A stretch of DNA of 47,495 bases, taken from IMG/VR virus record IMGVR_UViG_3300031703_000012, positions 1 to 47,495 of that record, one strand, 5' to 3'. The DNA comes from a virus. The notes under the pieces are model-generated. The model saw only the letters and a list, made by a program, of their open reading frames with translations. It was not told the DNA's origin and did not search any database. Made by a program: the position numbers and the translations under genes. Of the stretch, positions 20,969 through 26,675 are shown in pieces (within the stretch, counting starts at the first letter, position 1; each line of letters opens with the position of its first letter).

Positions 20969-21457
20969 ATGAGTACAATGTCACTAAAAGAAAGATCACC
21001 AAAAGCAATAGAGTTTGAATCATTTAAGAATGATTTTATTAAGTTTACTATGGATGTGATTGAACAAGATAAAGGCGATGGTTGGCCTGTTTGTCCTTAT
21101 GCTCGTAAAGCAAGAGTCAATGGCGAAATTCAATTCATGGATGGTAGAGATTTGAGTTATTCAAAGTCTGCATTAGAGACATTTGATAAGAGTCAGTTTA
21201 AAATGGCTGTTTGTTGGATGGGAGATGATTGTGATATAGATGTACTAGATAGCATCACATCGGAAATGCGTGCGTTATATCCAGAACATCATTATTTTGT
21301 AAGTACTGAATTGAGTGGATTATTCGTTAAGAACTTTACTCGTATTATTATTGTACAGATAAAAGAAGACATAGAAGATCGTCGTAAAAAACTTATTAAA
21401 ACGAACTACTATGATTCATGGACACAAGAGTATTACGACGAAATAGTGAACGATTAA
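20969..21457 (+). CDS. Conserved-looking phage protein of unknown function
   Basis: A 162-residue soluble protein with a strong AAGGAG site and its own late promoter. Notable parts are WPVCPYARKARVNGEIQF (about residues 46-63, with a Cys-Pro-Tyr-Ala motif) and an Asp/Cys-rich CWMGDDCDIDVLD. No signal peptide or membrane segment. Its stop overlaps the end of the convergent gp26 -1 frame. I do not recognise the family. Confidence 0.8.
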   Translation: MSTMSLKERSPKAIEFESFKNDFIKFTMDVIEQDKGDGWPVCPYARKARVNGEIQFMDGRDLSYSKSALETFDKSQFKMAVCWMGDDCDIDVLDSITSEMRALYPEHHYFVSTELSGLFVKNFTRIIIVQIKEDIEDRRKKLIKTNYYDSWTQEYYDEIVND

Positions 21458-21660
21458 GATTCACTATTCCTCTCGTTGTATCGTTTGATGAACAAGTCTA
21501 TCATGGGCACTGGCATTGTCATCAATGATTCGTATGTCATTGCACCATGTGACATGATAAGAATATCCATATGATTTGAATTTAACTTAGTTAGATCATC
21601 TTGGTATCTGTCAAGTATATCAGGAATTTCGTGCGGCTGACTTGTTGCTATCAGCCTGCG
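21454..21660 (-). CDS. -1 frame extension of gp26 (gp51-like C-terminus of a frameshift fusion)
   Basis: Reading on in the -1 frame from the slippery site gives 68 further residues, from RRLIATSQPHEIPDILDRYQ to the stop at 21454-21456. The end (LIMSHGAMTYESLMTMPVP, then a Leu/Phe-rich helix and a basic tail) is strongly protein-like and recalls small hub-assembly proteins next to gp26 in T4-like phages (gp51 position). No good independent start is present: the first ATG would give only 38 residues without a ribosome site. I infer expression as a gp26-extension fusion. It fills the otherwise unexplained 200 bases. Confidence 0.6.
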   Translation of the reverse strand, partial: RRLIATSQPHEIPDILDRYQDDLTKLNSNHMDILIMSHGAMTYESLMTMPVPMIDLFIKRYNERNSES

Positions 21661-22481
21661 AAAAAATTTGACATATCGAGTTCTACCTCAGATTCCCATT
21701 CATGCGAACACGATTGACATACTGCTTTAAATTTGGTATCGATACCGTTATCGGATATCTTTTCAATATGATCTTTCATATCTTTATAATCGCTTTTTGA
21801 AATATTGTGCAACCATTCACGAATAGTTTCTATATCAGTTATTTCATTATCATCGTAGGTAACAGATACGATACAATTAACCATAAGATCAATTGTCAGT
21901 GTTGATATTTCTACAAATGTTTTTCCAAATTTTTCATTTCTTTCAGCATCAGATAATTCAGTATTAGCGAGTTCTTGTATCATTCTCTCTTGTTGAATTT
22001 GCTGTATCTGAATTAATGTTCTATCATTCACATTATATGGTTTCAATTTAACATTGAATTTATCTTGCAGAATCAAATTATTTGATACATCTATCGCCTT
22101 AACAGATCCTAGAATTCTGTTAATATCCATTTCAAGCATATTAAGTTCGCCACAAGACGGACATTTAATATCGATATCTATTCCATCCCCATAACTTGCT
22201 TTGCGTATTGCAAGTAGAAGAACCATTAAATCATTAACAGGCGTTGACTTAGGATCAGTGATATCTGGACAACACGAGGAAAGTAACGCAATCGTTGCTT
22301 CTCCGTTAAATAACGCATCTGGTGTCTTTGAGATTATTTCATCTCTTGCTGTCATTGGGTAGATTGCCAATTCACCGTCAGCACTTAATTTAGGCTTTTC
22401 GGTATAGTATTGTCCACCAGAAGGTAGACTTATGTACATTGATGGTATTTTATACGCTTTCAATAAAGGATTGTTACTCAT
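21651..22481 (-). CDS. 26: Baseplate hub subunit / tail assembly protein gp26
   Basis: A 276-residue gp26-type protein (T4 base plate family). I chose ATG 22481 (MSNNPLLKAYKIPS) because GGAG lies 10 bases upstream, whereas the longer frame to 22547 would cover the late promoter. It has two Cys pairs that could bind zinc: CPSCG near residue 106 and CQSCSHEW near 255. The N-terminal PSMYISLPSGGQYY is typical of the family. It is divergent to the tape-measure genes, as gp26/gp51 are to the hub genes in T4. The last codons contain a T TTT TTC slippery heptamer. Confidence 0.82.
   Translation of the reverse strand: MSNNPLLKAYKIPSMYISLPSGGQYYTEKPKLSADGELAIYPMTARDEIISKTPDALFNGEATIALLSSCCPDITDPKSTPVNDLMVLLLAIRKASYGDGIDIDIKCPSCGELNMLEMDINRILGSVKAIDVSNNLILQDKFNVKLKPYNVNDRTLIQIQQIQQERMIQELANTELSDAERNEKFGKTFVEISTLTIDLMVNCIVSVTYDDNEITDIETIREWLHNISKSDYKDMKDHIEKISDNGIDTKFKAVCQSCSHEWESEVELDMSNFFAG
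21660..21666 (-). promoter_or_regulatory. Slippery heptamer U UUU UUC for -1 frameshifting
   Basis: In the gp26 frame the codons AAT TTT TTC GCA GGC TGA end the gene. T TTT TTC fits the X XXY YYZ rule, and the overlapping A AAT TTT also fits. A -1 slip skips the TGA two codons later and enters a 68-codon open frame. This is the arrangement used by tail assembly chaperones such as lambda gpG/gpGT. Confidence 0.6.
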
Positions 22482-22564: not shown

Positions 22565-24625
22565 ATGGCAATAGAAGACGACATCAGGAAGATTCACAAT
22601 GATTATCCTTGGGCAAGTGAAGACACATTGGGGAAGATTGCCTCTAACACACGCACCGAGAATGCCAAATTAAAGAAAGTATTTCAATCATTGACAGGTG
22701 TTGAGTTTGATTATGATTCTGTTAAAAAAGAGTTTGAAGACGCTGAGGAATTATTTAAGAAAACTAACAAATTAATTACAAAGATGGAAGATGGAACTAA
22801 AAACATGTTCTCTGTCGTGTCGCGAGATACCGACCCATTAGAAGCAACCGCAGAACTATTGAAGATGAGCGTTGGGGCTATTTCTGCTACCGTTGGTGGT
22901 ATTACCTCTTTTACACAGTTTCTAGGTCCTAAAGCCGCAGCAGTGTCATGGGTGGTTGATGGGGCTGTGGGGGTTGGTGTAGCGGCAGTCGGTGTAGCGG
23001 CAATATATGCAAAACTTATGTCGGAGCAAGAAAAAGGATTAAGACAGGTAATTGATTATGGTGGTGTTGTTGGTGATATGTCGCAATATACTGAAATGAG
23101 AGGATCATTGGCAGGCGTTGGTATGAGTATGCAAGAAATGACAAAGGTCATGAATGGAAACAAAGCCATGCTTGCAAATCTGCCAGACGGTTTGATGAAT
23201 ACTACGAAGCAATTTATAGATTTTTCTGGAAAAGTAGAATCTGAAACATCAAAGACAATGGGCGATTTTGGTTATGGCGTTGAGCAAATGACTACAAGAT
23301 TGTTAGAAGAAGCCAATTTAATGTATATGTCAGGTGAATTGGAACAATTTGGTCAATTGACGAAAGATAAAATAAGAAAGAATTTCGAGTCAAGTAGTGC
23401 GATGACCACTTTCCTTGCAGAAAAATTTGGTAGTCAACGAAGTGCGTTATTAGCGATGAGAAGCGAAGCGATGACAAACATAGATTTCATGACAGCAATG
23501 TCAATGAATGGCGAATATCTAGCAAAGACATATGGTGAAAATGCAGCAGAGAATGTTAAAAATACTGGTGCAAATATAAAGATGTTATTCAGTACAGTAT
23601 TGGGTCCGCAGTTTGGGGAACAAACTGAGCAAGTGTTTAACAATATGTTGAAAGATATTAATATAGACGCATCTGTTTTAAATAACATGCCGACTGATAT
23701 GATTAATATGTTGAGTACACTGGGACCAGAGGTGTCTACTCAATTCAAAGATATAATGGAACAAGCGGGAACAGGAAAATTATCACAACCAGAATTGGTT
23801 ATGAAAGTAAAAGAATTAACAACATCAATATCAATGGCGAGTCCTAGATATGGAGATGACCCGATAGTGCAACAATCAAACGATTTAATAGCACAAGCGC
23901 GTATAGCACCAGAAGCATTTATGGATTTGACAGTAGATCAATTAGACGCTGGATTAGAGAGTGTCAAATCATTAACCGAGCAAGCAGATAGTTCAATAGA
24001 TGCAATAGATGCAGCAAGAGTTGGATTTAGAACAGTTGTGAACGAATTAACTCCAGGTTATGCACTTGGTGCAACTGCCGTTAAAGGCTTTTCAGGTGCT
24101 TTAGGATTAGTGCAATCTGCATTTGAATTTATCGGATTGATAAAGACAGAAGATAAGCCAATAGAACCCGAAGTTACCAATCCAGGCGCCAATATGTCTC
24201 AGAAGATGATGTCAAATGGCGGCGCTGGAAGTGTAGTAACAGACGAGAATTATGATGATATGTCAGATAATGTAAAAGAGGCATATGACGCATATAAGAA
24301 AGCACAAACACTAAAACAGAAAGCAGCATATGCTAATGCATATACTAATGCATATAATATTTTAAACAAGAATTTTAGTCCCGGACAATTTGCAGAAGGT
24401 GGCGGACCTGTTCCAATTCAACGACCTAATGGTAGATGGTATGCTAATATAAAAGATCCTAATTCACCTATAGGTAGTAAAAAAGTATATGTAGATGAGT
24501 TAAATGTAGTTGGTATGAAGTTTAACAATATGCACCAATTAGATAGTATGATTGGTAAAAAAATTAAAGAAATAACCGAAGTAATAGAAAAGACGGCAGT
24601 AACGGAGAATATGAATGGCGGATAA
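22565..24625 (+). CDS. Tape-measure-like tail protein, copy 1
   Basis: A 686-residue protein from ATG 22565; an upstream in-frame GTG at 22526 lies too close to the promoter. An N-terminal YPWASEDTLGKIA motif is followed by helical, coiled-coil-like sequence. A Gly/Ala/Val-rich, membrane-like stretch lies near residues 125-150 (SWVVDGAVGVGVAAVGVAAI), then a long Met/Gln/Asn-rich helical body, as in phage tape-measure proteins that fill the tail tube. It shares architecture with the next gene. The location upstream of the portal differs from T4, where gp29 is elsewhere. The tape-measure role is inferred. Confidence 0.65.
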   Translation: MAIEDDIRKIHNDYPWASEDTLGKIASNTRTENAKLKKVFQSLTGVEFDYDSVKKEFEDAEELFKKTNKLITKMEDGTKNMFSVVSRDTDPLEATAELLKMSVGAISATVGGITSFTQFLGPKAAAVSWVVDGAVGVGVAAVGVAAIYAKLMSEQEKGLRQVIDYGGVVGDMSQYTEMRGSLAGVGMSMQEMTKVMNGNKAMLANLPDGLMNTTKQFIDFSGKVESETSKTMGDFGYGVEQMTTRLLEEANLMYMSGELEQFGQLTKDKIRKNFESSSAMTTFLAEKFGSQRSALLAMRSEAMTNIDFMTAMSMNGEYLAKTYGENAAENVKNTGANIKMLFSTVLGPQFGEQTEQVFNNMLKDINIDASVLNNMPTDMINMLSTLGPEVSTQFKDIMEQAGTGKLSQPELVMKVKELTTSISMASPRYGDDPIVQQSNDLIAQARIAPEAFMDLTVDQLDAGLESVKSLTEQADSSIDAIDAARVGFRTVVNELTPGYALGATAVKGFSGALGLVQSAFEFIGLIKTEDKPIEPEVTNPGANMSQKMMSNGGAGSVVTDENYDDMSDNVKEAYDAYKKAQTLKQKAAYANAYTNAYNILNKNFSPGQFAEGGGPVPIQRPNGRWYANIKDPNSPIGSKKVYVDELNVVGMKFNNMHQLDSMIGKKIKEITEVIEKTAVTENMNGG

Positions 24626-26675
24626 AACACACACTATCGAAGTTGAAGGAATATCAATACAAATACCTAAATGGGCTAGTGAAGAAACACTCAGTAAAAT
24701 AGCAGAATTAACTGGTACATCTAATCTTATGTCAAGTGTAATAGCAAAGCATATAAAGACAGGTACGGTAAATACAGCACAGTTATCCGATGATATTCAA
24801 GGAATTGCAAAGGAATATGCTTCAAGTAATGAAGAAGTATCGATAGCAAAGAAAGAATCTCTAGACAAAAAACTAGTTGGTGCAGCAAAATCAACTAAAA
24901 ATGCGGTTGACAAATTTAGTAATACTGATGCACCACTTACTTCAATGGTAGATATGCTTGGCGATATGGTTGGGGCTATTTCTGGTAGTGCAAAGGGAAT
25001 GACAAAGGACATTGATGCAAACTCTAAGGCAGGGAAGTTATTAAAAACCGCAGGCATTGGAGTTGGTGCACTTGCCGGTACAGCATTAGCATGGGCAGGC
25101 TTTCAAGTCGGACAAATAGAACAATTTGCAAAAGCACAAGAGACTATGATAAATTCTGGTGCAATCATGTTTGGCGATACATCTCCATATGAAACATTGA
25201 AGCAATCAGCGATAGCATCAGGTCTAACATATACTGAATTAACCAAACTAGTTAGTCAAAATGGCGTTGCATTTCAGTCATTGGGCAATGGGGTATCAAG
25301 TGGTACGACTGCATTTACATCAATGTTCAAGTCGGTCAATGAGACAGGTGATAAATTTGGTGACTACGGTTTAAGATCGGCAGAAATGGCAGAAGTTTTA
25401 GCTGATTATGTAAACATACAGCGTATGACATTATCTAAAGATATGGCATTATTAAGCACTCAAGATAGTGTTGAATTAGGATTTCATAATTTGATGATTG
25501 AAACAACCGCATTAGCAAGTTTGACAGGTGAGAATAGATCAGAAATATTACAGAAACGCTTAGCCTCATTATCGCAACCACAAGTTGCAGCAGCATTGGC
25601 AACAATGGATAAAGCGGGAGGCGGACACGCAGAAGTAGCACGATCGTTCATATCACAATTTGCACTACTTGAAAGTTCTATGGGTCCTGTCGGAAAAGAT
25701 ATATCTGATAGATTTAATGATTATATCTTTAGAGTGGCAGACACCCCAGCAGATTTTGATATGGCAGTTGCATTGGGACCAGATTTGGCTACAGCACTCG
25801 ATGCTGCAAATAATGGATTCACTGATAGAGTCAATGAGGTGTTTAGGTCTGGCGATATAGATGGCGCAAATAAGATGCTCGTTAAAGAGATGGCAAAGAT
25901 GCGTGATGCAGAAGTAGGGTCAAGTAATGTAGTAGTTGGTTCGGTTCAGCATATCATTCAACAGTTGAAAGCTGGTGGTGTTATGGTAGACAAACAAATG
26001 AAAAAATTGATTGGTATGAGCAAAAGTGAGTACGCCACATATCTTAAAGAAATAGAAGAGAAATCAGTCACATCTGGTGCAATGACAGTCGCGATGAACA
26101 ATATGAAAAAAACATTCATGATAATTCAAGATGCGTTTGTTTATAACTTAGATGAAGCATCTAATATGGCAGAAAAACTTGCAAATGGATTGAAATCTGG
26201 AACAGAGTCTATGAAAAACTTATTAAACAGATCAAATGAACCAGAGACTAACTTGCTTTACAAGAAAGACGATGAAACATTTAAAGATTACCAGATTAGA
26301 CTTATGGAGTCTAGACTAGAGCAATCAGGCAACACAGATGAGTTGAAGGCGTTTAGAAAAAAGCACTCAATAACACCAATGACAGAAGGAAATATGCCAG
26401 AACCCACTGCCAATAATACAGGTACAGGTACAAGTAAAAGTACAAGATTGGATACACCAAATGAGAATGGCAGAATGACAGATACGAATAAAACAAAAAT
26501 GATGCAAGATCCTGTTAATATTGGGGATAATAAGATGTCGCAGCATATAGAAGAGATTATAAAAACAAAACAGCAAACTGTAGCGGTTCTCAACCAGATG
26601 AAATCCGCTATGAAGAGCATACAGAGATCTAATGACTATAAACGAGCAGTTGATAATACTAATAAAACGGCATAA
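24615..26675 (+). CDS. Tape-measure-like tail protein, copy 2
   Basis: A 686-residue paralogue of the gene before it, overlapping it by 11 bases. The N-terminal IPKWASEETLSKIAELT matches DYPWASEDTLGKIASNT of copy 1, and DMLGDMVGAISGSAKG matches LLKMSVGAISATVGG. A hydrophobic stretch lies near residues 141-165 (TAGIGVGALAGTALAWAGF). Long helices and a Lys/Thr/Asn-rich C-terminal linker follow. Both copies have the same length from their chosen starts. One may be the tape measure and the other a co-filling or ejected protein. Confidence 0.62.
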   Translation: MADKTHTIEVEGISIQIPKWASEETLSKIAELTGTSNLMSSVIAKHIKTGTVNTAQLSDDIQGIAKEYASSNEEVSIAKKESLDKKLVGAAKSTKNAVDKFSNTDAPLTSMVDMLGDMVGAISGSAKGMTKDIDANSKAGKLLKTAGIGVGALAGTALAWAGFQVGQIEQFAKAQETMINSGAIMFGDTSPYETLKQSAIASGLTYTELTKLVSQNGVAFQSLGNGVSSGTTAFTSMFKSVNETGDKFGDYGLRSAEMAEVLADYVNIQRMTLSKDMALLSTQDSVELGFHNLMIETTALASLTGENRSEILQKRLASLSQPQVAAALATMDKAGGGHAEVARSFISQFALLESSMGPVGKDISDRFNDYIFRVADTPADFDMAVALGPDLATALDAANNGFTDRVNEVFRSGDIDGANKMLVKEMAKMRDAEVGSSNVVVGSVQHIIQQLKAGGVMVDKQMKKLIGMSKSEYATYLKEIEEKSVTSGAMTVAMNNMKKTFMIIQDAFVYNLDEASNMAEKLANGLKSGTESMKNLLNRSNEPETNLLYKKDDETFKDYQIRLMESRLEQSGNTDELKAFRKKHSITPMTEGNMPEPTANNTGTGTSKSTRLDTPNENGRMTDTNKTKMMQDPVNIGDNKMSQHIEEIIKTKQQTVAVLNQMKSAMKSIQRSNDYKRAVDNTNKTA

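Follow-up and report, generated by a model that had tools for sequence, protein, structure and literature searches.

The viral DNA analysed here, a stretch of 47,495 nucleotides (positions 1 to 47,495 of IMG/VR record IMGVR_UViG_3300031703_000012, hereafter the window), contains a single gene that, judging from its sequence, very probably gives rise from one start to two tail assembly chaperones, by −1 ribosomal slippage on the heptamer T TTT TTC. The gp26-type protein that it encodes would most likely be the short form, and gp26 joined to an extension in the −1 frame the long form. A programmed −1 frameshift joining gp26 to a gp51-like frame was the central claim of the original prediction, and it is supported by conservation at every locus compared, by purifying selection and by a profile match to T4 gp51. 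Genes frameshifted in this way are a kind already known from T4-like phages, and because related phages show the same arrangement the window adds a well-founded further case to it.

The gp26 gene lies on the minus strand (21651..22481) and encodes a protein of 276 residues with two conserved cysteine pairs. It matches the T4_baseplate family PF12322, the N-terminal domain of gp26 and gp51, at 77.3 bits against a cut-off of 24.5, the only match to this family in the window record, and also the baseplate hub family PHROG 150 (E 1.6e-24). Residues C107, C110, C255, C258, F273 and F274 are invariant in 19 sequences. The predicted structure (pLDDT 85.3) has 69 matches in BFVD at E ≤ 0.001, and many of the 50 listed carry the name baseplate hub or baseplate protein. 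Against the PDB nothing was found at E ≤ 0.001, the best match being at E 0.72, and a VIA-align comparison reached a Z of at most 6.4 (52 residues aligned), with no tail chaperone named among the matches listed.

The gene ends, on the minus strand, in TCA AAT TTT TTC GCA GGC TGA. The slippery heptamer (21660..21666) stands in the gp26 reading phase, two codons ahead of the gp26 stop, just as had been proposed. Among 25 open reading frames picked as likely genes out of 44 (11,514 codons in total), an in-phase T TTT TTY occurs once only, at codon 273 of 277 in gp26. The −1 frame extension (TAC-C, of the gp51 C-terminal type; 21454..21666, minus strand) comprises two phenylalanines, 68 residues and a stop. 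Counted from the re-read last base of the heptamer there are exactly 68 sense codons, as predicted, and then a TAA at 21456-21454; this stop and that of the convergent reading frame 20969-21457 overlap in the sequence TTAA. The frame had been correctly placed as ending at the stop of the convergent gene, but its protein end had been misread as ...MPVP, whereas it continues through MIDLFIKRYNERNSES.

Both the heptamer and the open −1 frame recur at all 50 loci compared, that is, the window and 49 others, duplicates included, which reduce to 34 distinct fusions and 33 distinct extension DNA sequences. A tblastn search with gp26 matched 62 phage records, most of them from jumbo phages related to T4, and 19 of the 62 were analysed; many of the others equal a chosen one in identity and score (60 matches were listed). 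Scans of IMG/VR contributed a further set of loci (L022-L051), five IMG/VR loci having a gp26 identical to that of the window, and scans with the gp26 of Vibrio 2.275.O and of XacN1 found no relative there. The heptamer is T TTT TTC in 48 loci and T TTT TTT in two (XacN1 and CM1), and past it the −1 frame continues without a stop for 68-80 codons. Between the heptamer and the gp26 stop there are anywhere from 3 to 33 nt, implying that conservation concerns the heptamer together with the −1 frame and not the zero-frame tail. When the −1 segment alone was used in tblastn, with E values allowed up to 1, it matched 17 phage records, all within the 62 that carry gp26. These matches are individually weak (E 1e-4, the best, to 0.1), and each abuts the end of gp26.

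Could the open frame lie beside a T run by coincidence, or could a sequencing error have split a single gene? An open −1 segment does arise by itself, in 162 of 20,000 dinucleotide shuffles, a frequency that, with the single in-phase heptamer, speaks for more than chance. Moreover, 50 loci drawn from many records repeat the arrangement, and the −1 frame is under the purifying selection described below; these findings already contradict such an origin, and we put its probability at virtually nil. It is also conceivable that the fused frame arises by slippage of RNA polymerase on the run of T, and not on the ribosome. The site is indeed a T run, of seven bases in XacN1 and CM1. Six T, however, is short for polymerase slippage, and a terminal C and the codon phase, features favoured by tandem tRNA slippage, are kept in 48 of the 50 loci. 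We consider a transcriptional origin extremely unlikely.

The −1 frame is under purifying selection, as expected of a protein-coding sequence. Ten close pairs formed from the window and four members of its clade (L025, L027, L028 and L029), compared over the region past the gp26 stop, give −1 frame dN/dS values of 0.28, 0.30, 0.18, 0.06, 0.71, 0.67, 0.11, 0.62, 0.11 and 0.09, and differences at −1 codon positions 1, 2 and 3 number 98, 22 and 175, summed over these 10 non-independent pairs. The three high values (0.62-0.71) are a counterpoint to the frameshift reading. The pairs concerned have only 1 to 5.5 synonymous changes, and in two of them, L025-L028 and L027-L028, the dN/dS of the gp26 frame is lower, at 0.35; in pairs that include the window the gp26 frame gives 0.92-1.06. 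For another eleven sequences, which resemble CBB and BF, pN/pS is 0.16 in the −1 frame and 1.35 and 2.33 in the remaining two frames; stops number 0 in the −1 frame and 67 and 87 in those two. The comparison of synonymous and non-synonymous change that had been suggested as a check thus comes out in favour of coding, and contradicts the view that the −1 frame lacks constraint.

A coding −1 segment might equally be a small gene in its own right, translated by termination and reinitiation at or near the gp26 stop. In Phosso, BF, 121Q and XbC2 an ATG does occur at or just past that stop and a separate coding sequence is annotated, a start codon lies no more than five codons from the heptamer in 5 of the 33 distinct extensions, and in one locus (L011) the open −1 frame has an ATG ahead of the heptamer. 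In the other 28 extensions the first five codons include no start, yet conservation begins at the residues FFR, right at the heptamer. In the window the earliest ATG, GTG or TTG of the open −1 frame is at codon 31 of 68 past the heptamer, bearing out the earlier statement that no usable start exists. The first start is likewise at codon 31 in RaK2 (L006) and at codon 35 in L041, and in Cassandra (L007) and PA5oct (L008) the extension has no start codon anywhere. A separate gene would, moreover, leave the conserved, in-phase heptamer without a purpose. An independent gene with its own start had been named as an outcome that would count against the frameshift; it is represented by the relatives in which a separate hypothetical protein is annotated, but not by the large majority that has no early start codon, and we regard it as a very unlikely explanation. 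The open, conserved extensions of RaK2, Cassandra and PA5oct carry no annotation in their records.

The label of gp51-like given to the −1 frame held up when profiles were compared, with shuffles as controls. The 34 distinct joined proteins were combined into a profile which, aligned by hhalign with a gp51 profile built from T4 and five T4-type phages, scores 58.6 (E 1.4e-7, probability 94%) and aligns along almost all of the gp51 profile. The gp26 part alone scores 42.5, and fusions with a column-shuffled extension reach a maximum of 43.7 in 30 trials. Used alone, the extension scores 31.0 over 36 columns, whereas none of 60 shuffles exceeds 22.1, and it matches gp51 over its last ~35 columns only. 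PF12322 is found in both T4 proteins, as in the gp26 of the window, and spans residues 1-206 of T4 gp26 and 1-201 of the 249 residues of T4 gp51; since the family stops at residue 201, the C-terminus of gp51 is an extra part. It is these last ~48 residues, outside PF12322, that match the C-terminal half of the −1 extension. The extension itself is predicted to be helical (pLDDT 87.5), and its model has no PDB match below E 6.7.

Immediately downstream of the heptamer in the window is a predicted 7-bp RNA hairpin (21635..21656, minus strand), a putative stimulator of slippage. Its stem, GGCUGAU/GUCAGCC, begins 3 nt past the heptamer, closes an 8-nt loop and includes the UGA stop of gp26. The fold has a z score of −3.26 over 45 nt (0 of 300 shuffles) and of −3.50 over a longer stretch (1 of 200 shuffles). 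In a relative whose gp26 is 55% identical (L031), TTG stands in place of CTG and CAA in place of CAG; neither change alters the protein of the −1 frame, and together they preserve the third pair of the stem as U-A in place of C-G. This is the one double change among four distinct sequences, and as covariation it is not significant, being equalled in 123 of 500 shuffles. Short-range folds in 31 distinct sequences have a mean z of −1.0, and 9 are significant at p<0.05, six of them from the group of the window; the remaining 22 have no significant short-range fold, and the enterobacterial group has none at all. For eleven hand-picked sequences folded over 64-71 nt, z is −2 or lower in 7, including XacN1 (−4.16), and those above −2 include SCTP-2 (0.06) and CBB (0.19). 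Because folds are significant in only some lineages, we think an RNA stimulator likely in the clade of the window but not general; other lineages may perhaps have stimulators in other forms. In the IMG/VR group L034-L040, a long-loop stem, GCCUAAC/GUUAGGC (z −3.07), follows the heptamer at ~3811-3858 of L034 and is a candidate lineage-specific stimulator.

In T4, genes 26 and 51 are separate and divergently transcribed, in contrast to the one gene plus frameshift of the window, and gene 26 ends in GAG TTC TTT GAG TTA CTA TAA, without the heptamer. Vladimirov, Gautam and Davidson, in the abstract of their 2022 paper, reportedly describe several T4-like groups that keep frameshifting, and T4 as using genes 26 and 51. 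Loss of the slippery site had been put forward as a further observation that would speak against the frameshift, and in T4 and five phages of its type gene 26 does indeed end without the site; these phages without the heptamer, however, have a separate, full-length gp51. The original prediction had also seen a chaperone-type expression strategy as unexpected for a T4-type hub protein. The strategy is supported, but the surprise shrinks, given that T4 gp26 and gp51 are already listed as hub assembly chaperones in a T4 review (PMC3004832); as a counterpoint, this review also reports evidence for gp26 within the hub itself.

The tail assembly chaperone genes of T4-like phages are the subject of Vladimirov et al. 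2022 (Virology 566:9-15), as cited in passages of PMC10274946, PMC10885494 and PMC12846349, and an excerpt of the last, citing that work, describes poly-T slippery sequences as known in their TAC-N genes. The same excerpt describes a conserved −1 frame with a poly-T motif at the end of TAC-N for the tail assembly chaperone of the Vandenendeviridae, much as in the window; the motif there is GTTTTT, in other phage families, and the likeness is one of description (PMC12846349). No literature was found that connects frameshifting with the baseplate hub in jumbo phages, which says little, as Vladimirov et al. 2022 lay outside the reach of the search.

Similar arrangements are present in phages whose sequences are distant from that of the window. 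In Vibrio phage KVP40 (gp26, ORF KVP40.0327) the end of gp26 has T TTT TTC, and in cyanophage C48C1 it has T TTT TTT, each with a −1 extension of like appearance; the stop follows the heptamer after one codon in KVP40 and immediately in C48C1, compared with two codons in the window. The C48C1 product named 'baseplate hub assembly catalyst' (L057 2277-2381) lies inside the gp26 −1 extension, its annotated start being internal to that extension. Sullivan 2010 (PMC3037559) describes cyanophage and marine vibriophage gp51 as being without the first ~200 residues, and such a short gp51 fits a −1 extension, since C48C1 and KVP40 show extensions of this kind on gp26.

Extensions of gp26 of the gp51 type are also found in the Firmicute phages LIS04 (L058 2120-2425), SP-15 (L059 1817-2137) and GXN1 (L060 1850-2215), where they are open in the +1 frame. 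By hhalign the profile of these +1 extensions scores 27.8 over 45 columns against that of the −1 extensions, compared with a maximum of 13.0 in 60 shuffles, and differences between the LIS04 and SP-15 extensions at codon positions 1, 2 and 3 number 15, 10 and 34 over 55 codons. Near the gp26 stop all three phages have in common the bases CCCGATTY, read in the gp26 frame as NCC CGA TTY; by inspection, NCC_CGA is a candidate +1 frameshift site in these three phages. No paper on phage SP-15 was found among the literature matches listed.

The gene orders around gp26 differ. LIS04 has tail tube, gp26 and tape measure, and SP-15 has tail tube, gp26, a short reading frame and a putative tail protein, both lambda-like. 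In the window, gp26 has both of its neighbours on the opposite strand and forms no operon with a recognised tape measure. The claim that it adjoins the tape measure holds for adjacency, in that the reading frame 22565-24625 (686 residues) is next to it, but this frame is transcribed divergently and no search identifies it as a tape measure: it has no match in the phage collection and none to a Pfam or PHROG family below E 0.1, and for it and frame 24615-26675 the best Pfam and PHROG matches are weak (E 0.17 or worse and 0.037 or worse, respectively). These two adjacent 686-residue frames are paralogues, with 26% identity over 396 residues (E 1e-17). A position directly upstream of the tape measure gene on the same strand, as found in LIS04 but not in the window, is a usual and not a defining trait of such chaperones, and T4 gene 26 likewise does without it.

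How would the two forms be made and used? In phage lambda, according to PMC5009743, the tape measure protein is bound by a short form, gpG, and by a rarer long form, gpGT, which arises by a −1 frameshift at the 3' end of the short gene, as predicted for the window; the long form recruits tube subunits. The lambda gene order is unlike that of the window, and the likeness drawn here is one of arrangement. We infer that most ribosomes on the gp26 gene would terminate after gp26 and release the short form (TAC-N), and that a minority would shift into the −1 frame at T TTT TTC, presumably assisted in the clade of the window by the hairpin three bases downstream. These would read 68 codons in the −1 frame and attach to gp26 a helical domain that shares homology with the C-terminal part of T4 gp51 (TAC-NC), and the extension would exist in no other form than joined to gp26. 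By analogy with lambda, the tape measure protein may then be bound by many copies of the short form and few of the long, with the long form recruiting tail tube subunits.

Several jumbo-phage records miss the long chaperone form or split off a 'hypothetical protein', and the short 'gp51' entries of cyanophages are probably the frameshifted end of gp26. The aligned set of sites can be used to ask how much of the long form tail assembly needs. The chances seem to us about even that one homologous chaperone gene has retained its output of a short and a long product by three routes: −1 slippage in the window phage, the jumbo phages, KVP40 and C48C1; +1 slippage on NCC_CGA in SP-15, LIS04 and GXN1; and two genes, 26 and 51, in T4, the clade of the window adding a gp26 stop inside a stimulatory hairpin. 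Homologous genes may use different recoding solutions.
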